NCBI GenBank assembly: GCA_022614805.1
Contig: JAKEHY010000023.1
Coordinates: forward strand, 1-64,000
DNA: 64,000 bases
Source: Candidatus Zixiibacteriota bacterium
GTDB lineage: Bacteria > Zixibacteria > MSB-5A5 > DSPP01
Direction: 5' to 3'
The notes under the pieces are model-generated. The model saw nothing but the letters and a program-made list of their open reading frames with translations. It did not search any database and was not told the origin of the DNA. A program made the translations under genes and the position numbers. Shown piece by piece: positions 55,725 to 64,000 of this stretch; the stretch's first letter is position 1, and each line of letters starts with the position of its first letter.

Positions 55725-56168
55725 CTAAAGATGAATAATCTCGAGGTCTGGCCGAACGGATTTCAGGTATTCGGCAACCAATCGCCTATGGCATTCTTCC
55801 GGGGTCGCTTCGGCGCAAAGTAGGCAAATTCTGTTGCAATCAGCGGTGATTTGGTCGAAGATTTCAGGGATTGGTCTGCTTCTCAACAACAGCGTATATT
55901 CCTGCACGTAGCCAGTCCAATCCGAGGTCTGTCTGAAGTTTCTTCGGATTTTGCTTGTTGGGGCGAATTCCTTGATTTGCTGATACTCAATCCCGAGTTT
56001 TTCTTCCACGATGGGTCTAAGCTTTGATGCCCTATATTCGCCCGAACCGATAAAGTTCGGGTTTTGCCTCGTGTCGATTATTTTGCGGATGCCATTGCCT
56101 TGAATGATGGTACAGAAGAGGTCGAGAGGCTTTTTACCGTAACCGATCGTAAACAGTTTAATAGACAT
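55725..56168 (-). CDS. DUF488 family protein
   Basis: A 147-residue protein with the DUF488 pattern: Phe-Thr-Ile-Gly-Tyr-Gly at the N-terminus, Ile-Ile-Asp-Thr-Arg near residue 31, and Cys-Leu-Leu-Cys-Ala-Glu-x4-Glu-Cys-His-Arg-Arg-Leu-Val near 115-130. The Cys-x-Glu...Cys-His-Arg segment is the family hallmark. Function unknown, though members occur often in defence and mobile loci. It starts 25 bases after the nuclease gene stop and is probably co-transcribed with it. Confidence 0.88.
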   Translation of the reverse strand: MSIKLFTIGYGKKPLDLFCTIIQGNGIRKIIDTRQNPNFIGSGEYRASKLRPIVEEKLGIEYQQIKEFAPTSKIRRNFRQTSDWTGYVQEYTLLLRSRPIPEIFDQITADCNRICLLCAEATPEECHRRLVAEYLKSVRPDLEIIHL

Positions 56169-56193: not shown

Positions 56194-56835
56194 CTATTGG
56201 TTAGCCACCTCGCGGCTCCATTTACAAAACTCGCAGCTCCCGTTAAAGTCCGGCAGGGCGCCTTCCAGACACCGCTTCGCCTGCTGGTACAATTCGAATG
56301 CCCTTTCTGGACGAGTCTTTAACTGGTGGACTTCGACTTCGAACGGAACGCCTTTATGCAATTCTCCCGTAGCCGGGCTGTAGTAAATGATACAGGCCTC
56401 ATCGGTCGTTTTGTGGCCGGTCTTCTGAAGCAGTAGCGTATAGGTATCCATTTGGGTCTGGTAATACCTCGCGCTGTAGCTCGTGTCGCCGGGCAGCGAA
56501 GCTCTGGTCTTGTGGTCTAATGGAATCAGCGAACCGTCCGGTAGCTGAAGGCAGTCATCCAGCTTTCCGGTGATTTTGAGGTCTATATCCGGCACTTCGA
56601 ACTTTAGGTTTAGGGATATGGCGGCCAGCTTCCCCTTCACCTTGCCATCAATCAGGGGCGGCAGCTTGCCATCCTTCCTATAGCGATTGAAGTATTCCTT
56701 GATTACCAAATCCATTCCACCCGGCAACGAGGGAAAAATTCCCCTGGGCCTGGCAATCTTCTTATTGAACTGAATCCAGAAGCAGCGCGGGCACTCGATG
56801 AAGAGGCTTAGGGTGGAGTTGGAAAGGGAGATCAT
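56194..56835 (-). CDS. PD-(D/E)XK nuclease, Cas4/RecB-like
   Basis: A 213-residue nuclease. Ser-Asn-Ser-Thr-Leu-Ser-Leu-Phe-Ile-Glu-Cys-Pro-Arg-Cys-Phe-Trp (6-20) is the usual start of Cas4/PDDEXK_1 proteins. Asp93 in Gly-Lys-Leu-Asp-Asp, Asp107-His-Lys109, and Gln-Met-Asp-Thr-Tyr near 128 form the RecB-type active site. Cys15/Cys18 with Cys201/Cys204 could hold an iron-sulfur or zinc site, as in Cas4. No cas genes or CRISPR array are present. It is divergently transcribed from the Argonaute fusion across 151 bases, suggesting a functional pairing as an accessory nuclease. Confidence 0.85.
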   Translation of the reverse strand: MISLSNSTLSLFIECPRCFWIQFNKKIARPRGIFPSLPGGMDLVIKEYFNRYRKDGKLPPLIDGKVKGKLAAISLNLKFEVPDIDLKITGKLDDCLQLPDGSLIPLDHKTRASLPGDTSYSARYYQTQMDTYTLLLQKTGHKTTDEACIIYYSPATGELHKGVPFEVEVHQLKTRPERAFELYQQAKRCLEGALPDFNGSCEFCKWSREVANQ

Positions 56836-56986: not shown

Positions 56987-59900
56987 ATGTTGCCAAGAGA
57001 GCTATTCGACAAACCTGACGTAGCGAAATTTGCGGACCGATATTTTGAGTCGCAGGTTTTTGAAAGAAAACGGGGTTTCACCGCGGAAAGGACAGCCGCG
57101 ACAATTTCCGCCTTTGCAAACGTTAATCCAGATGGCGGTTTAATCGTCATGGGAATTGAGGATGACGGCCGCGTATCGGGGATTTTCCAGTTCGGCCGGG
57201 GGTGGGTGAGTCACGTTCAAAAAAGCCTGAACGGAATAATACCTGTAGCAAATATTTCCGTTAAAACCACTCCTTGCTTGAATGCTGGAGGTGCCCCTGA
57301 TGAAATTCTTTTAATCCACGCAGCCTTTTCGTCAAGCAGGGTTGTGGAAGTTTCAGACGGTCGAGCTTTCAAGAGAATTGGAGAAGAAACCATTGAGCTC
57401 TCAGAGGACGAGAAACGAGAGCTAAGGATTTCCAAAGGTGAGTTGGAGTATGAAAGAGAACCGGTCACCGAATATAATCCTGAACTTTTGGACTCGCACC
57501 TAGTGGACGATTTTCTCCACCGAATTAAAGCCAGAGATTCTTTAAGCTTGGAGGTTTCCGCAGAGGACGTCCTTTTGAACAGAAGGTTGATTACGAGAAG
57601 AGAGGGTAAACTTTGGATTACTATTGCGGGGGCACTTCTATTTTATAAAGACCCCTGCAATATTATTCCCGGTGCAAGGGTGCGCTTTCTAAGATTTCAA
57701 GGGACCGAAGAGCTATTTGGTTCGGAATCAAATATTATTAAGGACTCTTACTTTGAAGGCCCACTGGCACGGCAGATCGCTAAACTGCAGGAGTTTTTAC
57801 GGACTCAGATTCGAGAATTTAGCTATCTAAACGAGGATGGCAGATTCGTCACAGAGGCAGAATACCCTGAATTCGCTTGGCTAGAAGCCCTTGTAAACGC
57901 TATTGCTCATCGGTCATATAATTTAAAATACGCTAACATTTTTGTGAAAATGTTCGATGACAAACTGGTAATAGAGAGTCCGGGTAGCTTTCCTGGAGTA
58001 GTTAGTGCATCAAATCTCATCCATTATCCGCGCAATCCGGTCATAATGGATGCGCTTCGCTATATGGGCTACGTAAAGGCCGCGAGGGAAGGAACCCGGA
58101 GGATGTACCAAGAAATGGAAAGAATGGAGCTTCCTCCTCCAGAGTTTAAAGGGGAGTCAAGTCAGGTTGTCGTGATTTTGTACAACAACATGGCGGAACG
58201 GGAAAAGAAAAGGAGTAAGACAAAAGAACCAATATCCTACGAGGTTGGGAATCTATTCCGTATGCAAATTGACGAGTCGAAGGGCACACTAGACGAAACA
58301 GAAAGCAAAATTCGCGAAGAATTTATCAAAAAACTAATGGCTAACGGTTGGGTACTAAGCCCTTTCAGGACATCGGCTCATTCTATAAAGAAAGAGCTAA
58401 AAGCAATCGAAGTTAAAGGCACGCTTGTATGCAGTATTCGCAAAGGATTTCGATTTTCATTCAAACGCTATAAGGATACACTGTTTCTCGCGATTGACCC
58501 CAAGGTTCAATTAGTTAACCATTTAACTCTGAAACAAATATTGGAAATTGTTCCAGATATTCGCTCGGTGCTTCCACGATATAAAATTCAGGCATTCGAC
58601 GTCGATAAAGATGCGCATTTAACCATATTGGGCTTAAAGAATGATAAAATGGCCAAGGTCACCATTGACCAGAAAGTATTTGAATTCCCGACTGACGAAC
58701 TCGTACCAGCCCTACCTGCCGATTTAACCCAACTCGTTCTTAAAGAGGCCTCGTCCACCGTGGATATCCGGAAAGAAATTGCGAGATATGCGAATTTGAC
58801 AGTTACAGACGCACCTCGGAAGAGGTTTACAGACACCATAGAACTTGCGAATGAACTCGCCGCGAAGATATTTCCCCTCAAGATAGATGGTACAACAATT
58901 TACATGAAGCCCGAACCCGCAAACCTAACCTTACCGGTCTTTTATGTAAACAGAGATCTCCGCGAGCCGGCTGCCACCTTTGACCCCCAGGGAACTAAAA
59001 AGGAAAGAGAAATTCTGAGCGGCCTTGTTAAGTTTGGCTCTTATGAAAAGCCCGATGCGACCATCTCTCTAATATCACTGGTAACCCCAAGCCAATCTAA
59101 GAATATGAATAGGCTTGTTGGCCAGATTGTAAAAGGTAGCTTCAAATTTGCCGGTATGGAGCGTGCTTTCAGTACCAAGATTACGGCCGAGAAAGTCATC
59201 ACTACAAAATCTCCCGATGATTACCTTGCAGCGTGCAAAGGAGAAGTGCCGCGATTGGATGAAAACAAAATCTATATGTTCCTGGCGTATTGCCCTGAGG
59301 GTACCTATTCACGAGAAGACTACTCGGCACCTTATTATACCGTTAAGAAATTTCTTTTGGAGAATGGCATTCTTTCCCAGATGGTGGATGAAGATACTCT
59401 AAATAATCCGAAATTCAAAGACTTCAATTTGGCCTTAGACATATTTGCAAAGAGCGGGTTTATCCCATGGGTCTTGGCGGACGGTTTGCCGGACGTAGAC
59501 CTAATTGTAGGGCTTTCATATTCGTCAATATCGGGAATAGAAAAACCTAACAGGGTAATCGGGTATGTTAACGTGTTCGACCCTTTCGGGAGGTGGCAGT
59601 TTTACAGAGGGAGTTCAAAAGCGTTTTCCTATGAAGAAAGAAAGAAATACTTTAGCAAATTAGTTGTAGAAACCGTGGAGGAAATTCAAAAAGATAGAAA
59701 TATCAAGAAAGTACATATCCATGTTTCCTTTAAACTCAGCAGAGAGATTAAGGAAGAAATTTATAACCAGCTCGCAGCTATTATACCTGGTATTTCAATT
59801 CATTTTGTTTGGATTAATCAAGGCCATACGATAAGGTTTTTTGACACGAATCCAACGGGAACTGGAAGCTTTCAGCGTGGATTATATGTTGTCACGTCTA

Positions 59901-60205
59901 AAGACCAGTTTTTCATCGCCACGACCGGAGAAAACGAGTTAAACCAGCAAAGTCTTGGCACTCCAAAACTTCTTGAAGTTAATGTTTCCTCACTTCCCAG
60001 GGAACGTTATCCAGACCTGAAAACTATAGCCTTTCACGTCCTAAGCCTTACTAAACTCAACTGGGCATCGACCAAGTCGTTCTGCAGAGAACCCATTACA
60101 ATCAAATTTGCGTCTGATATCGCTTACTTAATGAATGCCTTCCTAATGTCATCCGAAAGCTTTGTGTTAAACAAAAAGCTTGAAAAAAAGCCGTGGTTTT
60201 TATGA
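56987..60205 (+). CDS. AlbA_2-HATPase-Argonaute fusion protein (predicted defence)
   Basis: A 1072-residue single reading frame with two modules. Residues 1-400 resemble the Schlafen AlbA_2 / HATPase_c_4 family: Phe-Glu-Arg-Lys at 25-28, Ala-Phe-Ala-Asn-x5-Gly-Gly-Leu-Ile-Val-Met-Gly-Ile-Glu-Asp-Asp-Gly (42-61), then Trp-Leu-Glu-Ala-Leu-Val-Asn-Ala-Ile-Ala-His-Arg (298-309), Asp-Asp-Lys-Leu-Val-Ile-Glu-Ser-Pro-Gly and Arg-Asn-Pro-Val-Ile. Residues 420-1072 match a long prokaryotic Argonaute: a PAZ/linker-like region (Phe-Leu-Ala-Ile-Asp near 505), MID with Tyr783-Tyr784, Lys787/788, Gly-Ile-Leu-Ser-Gln798 and Lys822 in Ala-Lys-Ser-Gly, and PIWI with Gly-Leu-Ser-Tyr-Ser at 842-846 and Leu-Thr-Lys-Leu-Asn-Trp at 1021-1026. 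Catalytic aspartates are replaced (Ser844, Ser914), so it should bind but not cut. hsdM follows 79 bases later. Confidence 0.85.
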   Translation: MLPRELFDKPDVAKFADRYFESQVFERKRGFTAERTAATISAFANVNPDGGLIVMGIEDDGRVSGIFQFGRGWVSHVQKSLNGIIPVANISVKTTPCLNAGGAPDEILLIHAAFSSSRVVEVSDGRAFKRIGEETIELSEDEKRELRISKGELEYEREPVTEYNPELLDSHLVDDFLHRIKARDSLSLEVSAEDVLLNRRLITRREGKLWITIAGALLFYKDPCNIIPGARVRFLRFQGTEELFGSESNIIKDSYFEGPLARQIAKLQEFLRTQIREFSYLNEDGRFVTEAEYPEFAWLEALVNAIAHRSYNLKYANIFVKMFDDKLVIESPGSFPGVVSASNLIHYPRNPVIMDALRYMGYVKAAREGTRRMYQEMERMELPPPEFKGESSQVVVILYNNMAEREKKRSKTKEPISYEVGNLFRMQIDESKGTLDETESKIREEFIKKLMANGWVLSPFRTSAHSIKKELKAIEVKGTLVCSIRKGFRFSFKRYKDTLFLAIDPKVQLVNHLTLKQILEIVPDIRSVLPRYKIQAFDVDKDAHLTILGLKNDKMAKVTIDQKVFEFPTDELVPALPADLTQLVLKEASSTVDIRKEIARYANLTVTDAPRKRFTDTIELANELAAKIFPLKIDGTTIYMKPEPANLTLPVFYVNRDLREPAATFDPQGTKKEREILSGLVKFGSYEKPDATISLISLVTPSQSKNMNRLVGQIVKGSFKFAGMERAFSTKITAEKVITTKSPDDYLAACKGEVPRLDENKIYMFLAYCPEGTYSREDYSAPYYTVKKFLLENGILSQMVDEDTLNNPKFKDFNLALDIFAKSGFIPWVLADGLPDVDLIVGLSYSSISGIEKPNRVIGYVNVFDPFGRWQFYRGSSKAFSYEERKKYFSKLVVETVEEIQKDRNIKKVHIHVSFKLSREIKEEIYNQLAAIIPGISIHFVWINQGHTIRFFDTNPTGTGSFQRGLYVVTSKDQFFIATTGENELNQQSLGTPKLLEVNVSSLPRERYPDLKTIAFHVLSLTKLNWASTKSFCREPITIKFASDIAYLMNAFLMSSESFVLNKKLEKKPWFL

Positions 60206-60284: not shown

Positions 60285-61799
60285 ATGTTAGACATCAAAA
60301 CGCTTGAAAATTGGCTCTGGGAGGCGGCATGCAAAATCCGGGGAGAAATTGAAGCGCCAAAATATAAGGATTACATCCTCCCTTTGATTTTCTTGAAGCG
60401 ACTCTCTGACGTTTACGATGATGAGGTTTCGAATTTAGCCGCCGAGTACGGCGACAAAAAGATTGTTCATCAGCTCATTGAAGAAGATCATAGCCTGGTC
60501 TGGTTCTTCCTCCCGGAAAAAGTGCGGTGGAACGGCATAATAAAGCAAAGCACCCGGCTCGGCGAGTACCTAACTGATGCGGTTCGGGCCATAGCCAGGG
60601 AAAATCCTAAGCTCCAGGGTGTGATTGACATCGTGGATTTCAATGCTGCTACGGCCGGGCAGCGTGTGATTAGCGACGAGAAATTGAAACTACTCGTTGA
60701 CACTCTGAATAAGCACCGGCTTGGCCTAAAGGACGTCGAACCCGACATTTTGGGTAGGGCCTACGAGTACTTGCTTAGAAAATTTGCCGAAGGCTCAGGC
60801 CAGAGTGCCGGGGAGTTTTACACGCCGAGAGAAGTCGCAATTTTAATGAGCCAAATTGTGGACCCCAAAGAAGGGGAAGAGGTCTACGATCCTTGTCTTG
60901 GTTCTGGTGGTCTGATAATTAAGTGCTACCTGCGATTTAAGGAGAAATTTGGAGACAATGCGAAAATAAAGCCTCTAAAGTTTTACGGCCAGGAAAATGT
61001 CCATAGCACCTACGCCATGGCAAAAATGAATGCCTTCATCCATAGAATGGAAGCAGAAATTGCCTTAGGCGATACGATGAACCGGCCGGCATTCACCGCC
61101 TCCGAGGGTTCGCTGAGAAAATTCGACATCGTAGTTGCTAATCCAATGTGGAACCAGGATTTCGTTCAAAGCACGTATGAAAATGATGGTTTCAATAGGT
61201 TCGTTTACGGATATCCGCCTTCTTCTTCTGCCGATTGGGGTTGGATTCAGCATATGTTTGCTTCTCTAAAACATCAAGGAAGACTGGCGGTAGTGATTGA
61301 TACTGGTGCCATTTCCAGAGGCTCGAGGAATGCGGGGTCAAACAGAGAGAAAAGCATACGGAAGGCATTTCTTGAAAATGACCTAATCGAGGCCGTTGTT
61401 TTATTGCCGGAAAATCTTTTTTATAATAATACTGCTCCAGGTGTGATAGTAATTCTCACCAAAAACAAGAAACATAAGAGTGAAGTTCTAATTATCAATG
61501 CTTCTAAGCTATTTGAAAAAGGAAGACCAAAGAATTTTCTACCTGAAAAAAGCATTAAAACCATAGTCGACCTATTTCACAAGTGGAAGGGAGAAAAAGG
61601 CTTGAGTAAGATTATTACAAAGGAAGAGGTGTCTGCAAATGACTATAATCTTAGTCCTTCAAGTTATATCTCACAAAATGGTGGAGAAGAGGTGCTGGAT
61701 TTGGACGATGCCATAGTGCAAGTTAAGGACGCGGAAGAAGAAAGAAAGCTCGCAGATTATAAACTAAAAAAAGTTTTGGAAGAATTAGGGTTTGAGTGA
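60285..61799 (+). CDS. hsdM: Type I restriction-modification DNA methyltransferase subunit
   Basis: A 504-residue HsdM. An N-terminal helical domain (Trp-Glu-Ala-Ala-Cys-Lys-Ile-Arg-Gly) precedes SAM motif I Asp202-Pro-Cys-Leu-Gly-Ser-Gly-Gly. The catalytic motif IV is Asn286-Pro-Met-Trp, a variant of the usual Asn-Pro-Pro-Phe/Tyr in which the second Pro is Met. Ala-Gly-Glu-Phe-Tyr-Thr-Pro-Arg-Glu-Val is typical of the family. It N6-methylates adenine in a bipartite target chosen by HsdS. The start is supported by GGGGTGAC before the ATG. It overlaps hsdS by 8 bases. Confidence 0.93.
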   Translation: MLDIKTLENWLWEAACKIRGEIEAPKYKDYILPLIFLKRLSDVYDDEVSNLAAEYGDKKIVHQLIEEDHSLVWFFLPEKVRWNGIIKQSTRLGEYLTDAVRAIARENPKLQGVIDIVDFNAATAGQRVISDEKLKLLVDTLNKHRLGLKDVEPDILGRAYEYLLRKFAEGSGQSAGEFYTPREVAILMSQIVDPKEGEEVYDPCLGSGGLIIKCYLRFKEKFGDNAKIKPLKFYGQENVHSTYAMAKMNAFIHRMEAEIALGDTMNRPAFTASEGSLRKFDIVVANPMWNQDFVQSTYENDGFNRFVYGYPPSSSADWGWIQHMFASLKHQGRLAVVIDTGAISRGSRNAGSNREKSIRKAFLENDLIEAVVLLPENLFYNNTAPGVIVILTKNKKHKSEVLIINASKLFEKGRPKNFLPEKSIKTIVDLFHKWKGEKGLSKIITKEEVSANDYNLSPSSYISQNGGEEVLDLDDAIVQVKDAEEERKLADYKLKKVLEELGFE

Positions 61800-63063
61800 T
61801 ATCGTGGTGCGAAAAGAAAATCCCCGAACAATAAAGGCTGACCAATTACAGCCTGGTGACCAACCCTTTGGCTGGCGGATTGAAACTGTAATCGGCTGCA
61901 CCTTGAATAAGCGAGCATCAGTTGGAAAGGTTAAACAGCAACGCTATAAAAAGCAAGGTAAGTATCCTATTGTGGATCAAAGTCAAAAGCTAATTGCAGG
62001 TTTTTGGGACCAGGAAGAAGACGTATATAAAGGGAATCTTCCTGTGGTCGTATTCGGAGACCATACTAGGATTGTTAAGTATATCGACTTTCCATTCGTG
62101 TGTGGAGCTGACGGTACGAGAATTCTGATTCCTGATACCCAGATTGTATTTCCTCTTTTTCTTTACTATTCCCTCTTATTTATAGATATACCGAGCAGGG
62201 GATATAACAGACACTACTCGTTACTAAAAGATAGGGCTTTGCGGTTACCGCCTTTGCCTGAACAAAAGAGTATTGCCGTCGTACTGTCCGCCATTCAAGA
62301 ATCAAAAGAAAGGACAAAGCAGGTCATTGGTGCTTTGCGAGAGCTAAAAACATCTCTAATGAAGCATCTGTTCGATTTTGGGCCCGTAAGGTTGGAGGAA
62401 ATCGGCAAGGTAAATCGTAGAGAAACCGAGGTCGGGCTGATTCCTAAAACATGGAAAATTACAAAAATATCGGATGTTGTAGAAAACACACCCTACGTAA
62501 ACGCCAGACGCCCCCTTAGTATGAAATTTAGATATGTGGATGTGTCTAGCGTTAACAATGTCTCTCTTAAAATTGAATTAACAGCTACTTACGAAGGCCG
62601 GAAGGCTCCCAGCAGGGCGCGGAAATGGATTAAGAATGGCGACGTAATAATTGCTACAGTGAGGCCAACTCTGAAAAGAATTGCCCTGATAGGCCCAGAC
62701 TTAGACGGTCAAATTTGTTCTACCGCATTCTGCGTTTTGAGGGCAAATAGCGGTGCGATGGATAATAAATACCTCTTTTATGCTATCCAGAGAGATGCCT
62801 TCATCGAAAATCTTGGAAAACTACAAAGGGGCGCAAGCTATCCTGCCGTTACTGACAAGGATGTAAAGAGTCAAAAGATACCGCTCCCGGATCCGAGCGA
62901 TCAACTACAGATTTCCCTCATCCTGTCTGCGCTTGATGAAAGAATAGCTCAAGAAGAAAAAAAGGCGGAAACGTTGGCACAATTATTTCAGTCGATGCTT
63001 CATTACCTAATGACCGGTATAGTGAGGGTCAACCATTTGAAGTTAGAGGTTGGGCATGGCTAA
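61792..63063 (+). CDS. hsdS: Type I restriction-modification specificity subunit
   Basis: A 423-residue HsdS with two target-recognition domains (about 20-165 and 215-370). Each is followed by a conserved helix: Leu-Pro-Pro-Leu-Pro-Glu-Gln-Lys-Ser-Ile-Ala-Val-Val-Leu-Ser-Ala near 160 and Ile-Pro-Leu-Pro-Asp-Pro-Ser-Asp-Gln near 365. Asp/Glu-rich coiled helices act as the spacer ruler. It reads the two halves of the recognition site. Start TTG 61792 overlaps hsdM; GTG 61804 is the alternative. hsdR begins inside its end. Confidence 0.9.
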   Translation: MSDIVVRKENPRTIKADQLQPGDQPFGWRIETVIGCTLNKRASVGKVKQQRYKKQGKYPIVDQSQKLIAGFWDQEEDVYKGNLPVVVFGDHTRIVKYIDFPFVCGADGTRILIPDTQIVFPLFLYYSLLFIDIPSRGYNRHYSLLKDRALRLPPLPEQKSIAVVLSAIQESKERTKQVIGALRELKTSLMKHLFDFGPVRLEEIGKVNRRETEVGLIPKTWKITKISDVVENTPYVNARRPLSMKFRYVDVSSVNNVSLKIELTATYEGRKAPSRARKWIKNGDVIIATVRPTLKRIALIGPDLDGQICSTAFCVLRANSGAMDNKYLFYAIQRDAFIENLGKLQRGASYPAVTDKDVKSQKIPLPDPSDQLQISLILSALDERIAQEEKKAETLAQLFQSMLHYLMTGIVRVNHLKLEVGHG

Positions 63064-64000
63064 GCTTGGGGTTGAAAGGACTGCAGTGCAGGCTCCACTA
63101 GTCCAATATGCATGCGAAATAGGATGGGAATACGTTGGGCAAGAAGAAGCTCTAAGGCTTAGGGGAGGGAAGACCGGCCTGCTCTTTAAAGAGGTTTTTA
63201 CCGATCAAATACTCAAACTCAACTCCGACTTTATTGACCACCTAATGATTGAGGAAATCATAAAGAAACTTGAGAGATTACCTGCCAGGATTGAAGGCAA
63301 TCTACAGGCCTGGGAATACCTGCGGGGACTTAAAACCGTGTTCGTGCCTGACGAAAAGAGAGAAAGAAACGTCAAATTCATTGATGAGGACATCAAGAGC
63401 AATGGTTTTCACGTGACGGACGAATTTGAGTTTACGAATGGAACTCATACGAATCGGTATGACGTTGTCTTTTTGATTAACGGCGTGCCCGTTTTCTTCG
63501 TAGAGACCAAGGCTGCTCACAAACTGGAAGGCATTCAGGAGGGCCTTGACCAAGTCAGAAGGTACCACAGAGAAACTCCGGAGGCCATGACGCTGTTTCA
63601 GATTTACACCCTGACTCACATCATACAATTTTTTTACTCAGCCACTTGGAATTACTCGCACAAAACCTTGTTTAACTGGAAAAGGGAAAGCCAGGAAAAG
63701 GACTTTGAGAATTTGGTAAAGGCTTTCTTCGACCGAAAGGCCGTGGTCGGTACGCTCCTGAAATACATCCTGTTTACAAGGCAGGATGACGAACTAAAAA
63801 AGGTAATTCTAAGGCCTCATCAGATGAGAGCAGTCGAGAAAATTGTAGAAAGGGCCGCCCATAAAATCAAACACAAGGGCCTAATTTGGCACACGCAAGG
63901 AAGTGGAAAAACGTACACAATGATTGTGGCGGCACAGGCCATCTTAGAGAATCCCTTGTTTGAAAATCCCACCGTCATTCTGCTTGTGGATAGAAACGAG
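63056..64000 (+). CDS. hsdR: Type I restriction endonuclease subunit, N-terminal 315 residues (runs off the window)
   Basis: Open to the window edge. ATG 63056 overlaps the hsdS stop by 8 bases. The N-terminal nuclease domain has Asn-Arg-Tyr-Asp136-Val-Val-Phe and Val-Phe-Phe-Val-Glu150-Thr-Lys152, the PD-(D/E)XK site, then Gln-Val-Arg-Arg-Tyr. The motor domain begins with Arg-Pro-His-Gln-Met-Arg-Ala and Walker A His-Thr-Gln-Gly282-Ser-Gly-Lys285-Thr, followed by Val-Ile-Leu-Leu-Val-Asp-Arg. It translocates DNA and cuts unmodified DNA. No frame disruption is visible, so the system looks intact as far as it can be seen. Confidence 0.93.
   Translation, partial: MAKLGVERTAVQAPLVQYACEIGWEYVGQEEALRLRGGKTGLLFKEVFTDQILKLNSDFIDHLMIEEIIKKLERLPARIEGNLQAWEYLRGLKTVFVPDEKRERNVKFIDEDIKSNGFHVTDEFEFTNGTHTNRYDVVFLINGVPVFFVETKAAHKLEGIQEGLDQVRRYHRETPEAMTLFQIYTLTHIIQFFYSATWNYSHKTLFNWKRESQEKDFENLVKAFFDRKAVVGTLLKYILFTRQDDELKKVILRPHQMRAVEKIVERAAHKIKHKGLIWHTQGSGKTYTMIVAAQAILENPLFENPTVILLVDRNE

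Follow-up and report, generated by a model that had tools for sequence, protein, structure and literature searches.

A protein of 1,072 residues, encoded by a single uninterrupted frame (56987-60205, plus strand), joins an N-terminal Schlafen (AlbA_2) and ATPase module to a long prokaryotic Argonaute (pAgo) in the window, i.e., the whole 64,000-nucleotide stretch of DNA analysed here. Judged from its sequence, this fusion has an intact guide pocket, has lost the four slicer positions of its PIWI domain and carries a Schlafen acidic triad. We give about an even chance (roughly 0.5) to the reading that it acts as a one-protein guide-directed alarm, in which sensing by the Argonaute would switch on a Schlafen RNase in cis and lead to growth arrest. 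The Schlafen-ATPase-Argonaute combination is already on record, since several long-B pAgos fused to Schlafen AlbA_2 were described in 2018 (Ryazansky et al., PMC6299218), and the window protein is a new deep-branching copy of it. No experimental study of any AlbA_2-fused Argonaute was found in the searchable open literature.

In Pfam, SLFN_AlbA_2 matches residues 21-137 (E=9e-10, 39.6 bits against a cut-off of 25.3) and HATPase_c_4 residues 317-398 (E=3.9e-17, above cut-off), nothing else along the protein being significant. In PADLOC, PDLC02394, a model of the full-length pAgo, matches residues 27-1072 (E=1e-233) with the same domain order, and a PDB sequence search with the C-terminal part returned EcAgo as the best match (E=5e-13), together with RsAgo (E=9e-9), AqAgo, CpAgo, AfAgo and short pAgos; by these comparisons the match to pAgos lies far beyond chance. 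The ATPase region matched 3LMM, an uncharacterised protein. The domain order, full-length profile match, lost slicer residues and YK pocket are all shared with the AlbA_2-fused long-B pAgos (PMC6299218; PDLC02394). The fusion is the sole match of its kind in its own genome. Its predicted structure is of moderate confidence (mean pLDDT 64); the Argonaute part folded alone gave a poorer model (pLDDT 54), which was left out of the analysis.

Table 1. Features of the fusion gene and its neighbours, in window coordinates
Feature	Position	Strand	Basis or remark
DUF488 protein beside the PD-(D/E)XK gene	55725-56168	-	matches PADLOC candidate-defence models PDC-M45C and PDC-M19A
PD-(D/E)XK (RecB/Cas4-like) nuclease, divergent	56194..56835	-	PDDEXK_1 2.5e-9, Cas4 6e-6; context, possible alternative effector
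SLFN_AlbA_2 - HATPase_c_4 - long pAgo fusion, 1072 aa	56987..60205	+	ORF; Pfam; PADLOC PDLC02394
N-terminal module, residues 1-405: Schlafen/AlbA_2 (21-137) and GHKL-like HATPase_c_4 (317-398)	56987..58201	+	Pfam; fold prediction
Schlafen motif E21-x4-E26-x-K28, first two acids of putative RNase triad and lysine	57047..57070	+	profile alignment to SLFN11/12/13/14 structures
D59, putative third acid	57161..57163	+	aligned to rSLFN13 D248; lost in the 7 other fusions
ATPase N-box E300-x3-N304-x3-H308	57884..57910	+	invariant in 38/38 module sequences compared
Putative N, L1, reduced PAZ-like small barrel, L2 (~residues 421-680)	58247..59026	+	RsAgo structural alignment; secondary structure
MID domain (~residues 682-830)	59030..59476	+	AGO MID domain matches, Z ~12, rmsd ~3
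PIWI domain (~residues 831-1072), ends WFL	59477..60202	+	PDB search, MAFFT alignment, structure comparison
Y783 and K787, 5'-phosphate pocket	59333..59347	+	alignment
Q798, 5'-phosphate pocket	59378..59380	+	alignment
K822, 5'-phosphate pocket	59450..59452	+	alignment
S844, first catalytic Asp position	59516..59518	+	aligns with D of AqAgo 'GIDIS', TtAgo 'GFDAG'
Y882, glutamate finger position	59630..59632	+	aligned to AqAgo E541 and TtAgo; least certain of the four columns
S914, second catalytic Asp (third DEDX position)	59726..59728	+	aligns with D of 'HRDGR'/'LRDGR'
S1043, fourth catalytic position	60113..60115	+	AqAgo 'HYSDKI', TtAgo 'HLADRL' against KFASDI
hsdM of type I R-M operon	60285..61799	+	Pfam; context
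hsdS	61792..63063	+	Pfam; context
hsdR	63050..64000	+	runs beyond window end; 967 aa in contig; context

Guide pocket and slicer positions of the Argonaute half

The stretch 59333-60118, in which the initial annotation had read a guide-binding MID and a PIWI domain without catalytic residues, corresponds exactly to residues 783-1044 of the fusion, within its C-terminal part, and every residue named in that annotation is there. Y783, K787, Q798 and K822 align with Y463, K467, Q478 and K506 of RsAgo, which we take, in numbering and role, to form its 5'-phosphate pocket. The residues are the same as in RsAgo and identical in 8/8 fusion proteins, and the MID domain presents the canonical YK motif for the guide 5'-end. 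The proposed Tyr-Lys...Gln...Lys pocket is borne out by this alignment, which also settles the alternatives given for its first two members, Y783 and K787 being the pocket residues and Y784 and K788 mere neighbours. The Argonaute half can probably still hold a guide.

The catalytic columns were placed in two ways, which agree: with HMMER against the active slicer AqAgo, and with MAFFT on a set that included TtAgo, RsAgo and other pAgos. In line with the earlier reading, serines stand at two of the DEDX aspartates, S844 at the first position and S914 at the third, and both are conserved in 8/8 fusions. The glutamate finger, to which the initial annotation assigned no residue, falls on Y882. D1044, by comparison, had been counted as a retained catalytic residue through a misalignment of one residue: the Asp of AqAgo and TtAgo meets S1043, a position occupied by G or K in the relatives, whereas D1044, conserved in seven of the eight fusions (N in one cyanobacterial copy), lies one residue off the catalytic site. 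That the fourth position is S1043 and not D1044 strengthens the conclusion of lost slicing. Alignment to AqAgo and TtAgo finds an acidic residue at none of the four positions (S844, Y882, S914 and S1043), and by this alignment the tetrad is lost. The assignment is based on these two active Argonautes at the level of sequence, the pLDDT of the model being below 50 over residues 1022-1072. The initial annotation therefore holds for the lost slicing and the kept pocket and fails for D1044; of the non-slicing, guide-directed sensor that it proposed, a guide-binding, non-slicing and long-B-like Argonaute half is supported by alignment, tree and profile matches.

Beyond the module, RsAgo residues 24-738 align along model residues 421-1037 with an rmsd of 27 (lobes displaced, low model confidence), and a small barrel is predicted, with low confidence, at about residues 532-568. 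A Tudor domain in place of PAZ was considered and rejected: the Pfam TUDOR profile reached only E=0.017, below cut-off, in one member and gave nothing in five, and this reading is further weakened by the alignment of a similar small region in other long-B proteins. RsAgo and EcAgo (long-B, BPAN) resemble the window protein in guide pocket, lost tetrad and, apparently, tree neighbourhood and reduced PAZ region, but their nuclease is separately encoded, whereas the candidate effector of the window protein is fused at its N-terminus. In the SIR2-, TIR- and nuclease-APAZ short pAgo systems, too, an inactive PIWI serves as the sensor for a toxic effector that is fused to it or paired with it; unlike them, the window protein is a long pAgo with putative N, L1 and L2, and no APAZ, SIR2 or TIR domain was found in it.

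The Schlafen-ATPase module as candidate effector

The predicted fold of residues 1-405 resembles 3LMM (Z 22.9, 334 residues aligned, rmsd 12.0). SLFN11, SLFN12, SLFN14 and the 5yd0 Schlafen, presumably SLFN13 (deposited as Schlafen 8), are recovered by a profile built on roughly the first 150 residues, with the E-x4-E-x-K motif aligned. In rat SLFN13, E205, E210 and D248 form the RNase site; a change of either Glu abolishes the activity, and a change of any of the three diminishes it (PMC5862951). When the residue spacing of rSLFN13 (PMC5862951) is counted along the 5yd0 alignment, this three-carboxylate site is matched in the window protein by E21, E26 and D59. One Schlafen lobe with aligned catalytic acids is common to the fusion and the mammalian SLFN11/12/13/14 RNases, but the latter are two-lobed, have other C-terminal parts and are very distant from the window protein. 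Pfam detects a single AlbA_2 stretch in the fusion and no second lobe, in place of the two-lobed pseudodimeric core of SLFN13, and we do not claim a mammalian-type Schlafen.

The same E-x4-E-x-K...D pattern and N-box occur in free-standing Schlafen - minimal histidine kinase ATPase - wHTH proteins (phage, plasmid and BREX-linked), which have been described as defence-linked RNases (PMC12839542). These end in a short wHTH-like region, whereas the window protein continues into Argonaute. Free-standing versions of the module, with a helix-turn-helix-like region at the C-terminus, were found in Gordonia and Mycobacterium phages, a human gut phage contig, plasmids and alphaproteobacteria. We equate the N-terminal module with the BREX-linked Schlafen-kinase-wHTH RNases, an identification that is our own.

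The third acid is kept in the window protein and in most free-standing modules; in 7/7 other fusions, and in one module nested among them, it is replaced by A, S, T or K, and the second acid is D instead of E. The window protein is the only one of the eight fusions examined with the full E21/E26/D59 triad. The state of the sister proteins speaks against an RNase acting in cis, as RNase activity may not be the function of the family, and it favours the main rival, a non-cutting, nucleic-acid-binding role of the module. The AlbA_2/HATPase module would then serve as a clamp under ATP control, reinforcing or extending the binding at the target and stopping replication or transcription, while no part of the protein cleaves. 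Consistent with such a silencer, the seven sisters kept the ATPase N-box and the guide pocket while losing the third acid and sit on a long branch, the 2018 survey (PMC6299218) lists AlbA_2 as a DNA-binding domain, and some free-standing modules are located in phage integration or regulation regions. We consider it unlikely, though the strongest of the competing explanations, given that the window protein itself retains the complete E/E/D triad with K28, and that in PMC10620215 the long-B pAgos tested to date work through toxic effectors.

In long-B pAgos of the BPAN type, RNA-guided DNA recognition activates an effector (PMC10620215). By analogy with these systems and with Schlafens, the Argonaute half of the window protein would bind a short 5'-phosphorylated guide, probably RNA, and detect, but not cut, invader nucleic acid that matches it, probably DNA. 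The signal could be relayed via N/L1 to the neighbouring HATPase-Schlafen module, whose Schlafen domain (E21, E26 and D59, with K28) would be switched on as an RNase, most likely against tRNA or other RNA, with growth arrest or abortive infection as the outcome. The part of ATP and a role in defence are likewise presumed. The more specific version of the alarm reading, a single-polypeptide Schlafen RNase under guide direction with ATPase-gated cutting of tRNA or RNA in cis, of which the window protein would be the deep branch that keeps the full catalytic triad and the sister fusions the copies that lost or remodelled the effector, is put forward tentatively, at somewhat less than even odds.

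Distribution and origin of the fusion

Besides the window protein, seven other full-length fusions were found, in a Rubrobacter radiotolerans plasmid (L017), Symploca, Stenomitos, one more cyanobacterial genome, a Hyphomonadaceae bacterium, a gammaproteobacterium and Candidatus Dadabacteria. Across the 132 genomes of the host phylum that were searched, no fusion other than the window protein was detected. Fusions occur in 2/386 cyanobacterial genomes, one of the two being the genome used as search centre, and in 1/57 genomes of a Dadabacteria set, 1/289 of an alphaproteobacterial set and 1/194 of a gammaproteobacterial order, each time in the search-centre genome itself. They are rare and scattered.

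The MID-PIWI tree places the window protein on a deep branch as sister to the other seven fusions (99/98), to which it is ~41% identical in MID-PIWI. The fusions and the RsAgo-type pAgos group at 89/84, an unstarred value obtained with few references. The next branch after the fusions is a pAgo from an Adhaeribacter plasmid (L018:5470-7797), the nearest non-fused relative, in which a C4 zinc-finger N-terminus replaces the Schlafen module; where the fusions have S in place of the second catalytic Asp it has N, and the alignment shows no YK motif in its MID. A further PIWI-like match, 25.6% identical to residues 762-1072, lies in a human faecal contig recorded as phage (MT835890.1, 10591-11490).

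The N-terminal module of the window protein is 37-43% identical to free-standing modules of alphaproteobacteria and related phages and ~30-31% identical to those of the other fusions, whose insertions it lacks. An independent second fusion or an exchange of the module, suggested by this closeness, found no support in the module tree, where the window protein, the other fusions and the free-standing modules form an unresolved trichotomy (window protein with fusions 48/19; alternative AU p 0.567) and the fusion clade sits on a long branch of 1.79. A single fusion event is the simplest reading, on a tree that cannot decide between it and a second fusion.

Nested in the fusion clade is a cyanobacterial module gene without detectable Argonaute (L028:7974-9644), which we read as a secondary loss or split. 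Such a gene lends some credit to the idea that the module acts alone and that the Argonaute part is left as a remnant, either decaying or structural. We regard this idea as very improbable: the frame of the window protein is intact across 1072 codons, and strict conservation from phylum to phylum is seen in the pocket residues, in the C-terminal WF(I/L) and at many positions of PIWI.

Gene neighbourhood

An all-against-all comparison of neighbours within 8 kb found no gene common to all fusion loci. The fusion therefore appears to be a one-gene system, for which an effector in cis is expected. The gammaproteobacterial and Dadabacteria MAGs have a large P-loop protein in common near the fusion gene (L022:65-1390 and L027:2322-6386, 47% over 410 aa).

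In the window, unlike the loci of the other AlbA_2-pAgo fusions, the gene adjoins a type I R-M operon. The hsdM gene starts 80 bp downstream on the same strand, and hsdR is followed by a YgjP-like peptidase and later by a helicase, a DUF6094 methyltransferase and a tyrosine integrase, the integrase ~14 kb downstream. These last three (L072:14177-18804; G000:C21, ~70-75 kb) suggest a mobile island, and the locus looks like a defence island. In another genome of the same class (L014, G131), a pAgo split into N-L1-L2-like and MID-PIWI ORFs directly follows hsdM, a second association of a pAgo with type I R-M in that class.

This setting bears on a third explanation, in which target recognition would recruit the adjacent PD-(D/E)XK nuclease, or the protein would work with the downstream type I R-M system, much as other long-B pAgos work with nuclease partners. 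Both HsdS and PD-(D/E)XK (Cas4-related) nucleases are repeatedly encoded next to pAgos (PMC2743648, PMC6299218), and the position of hsdM, in the window as in L014, fits this arrangement. The nuclease gene is divergent, however, and it aligns neither with the partner-position gene of the long-B locus L048 nor with the PDDEXK gene near the Adhaeribacter pAgo, so that a BPAN-type PD-(D/E)XK partner (bAgaN) is not recognised here; nor is any such neighbour common to all the other fusion loci, a single weak match (27%) being that to a PD-(D/E)XK gene beside a helicase in L071. We therefore rate an effector in trans as distinctly improbable. The lack of a shared neighbour and the intact acidic triad of the Schlafen-like module make plausible the earlier statement that any effect has to come from the N-terminal module; the adjoining PD-(D/E)XK gene and the type I R-M operon downstream leave it short of proof.

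If the alarm reading is true, a single protein would couple sensing guided by small nucleic acids to the arm of immunity in which Schlafens cut tRNA. The window protein with its full triad, set against seven sisters without the third acid, offers a clean contrast for testing it.
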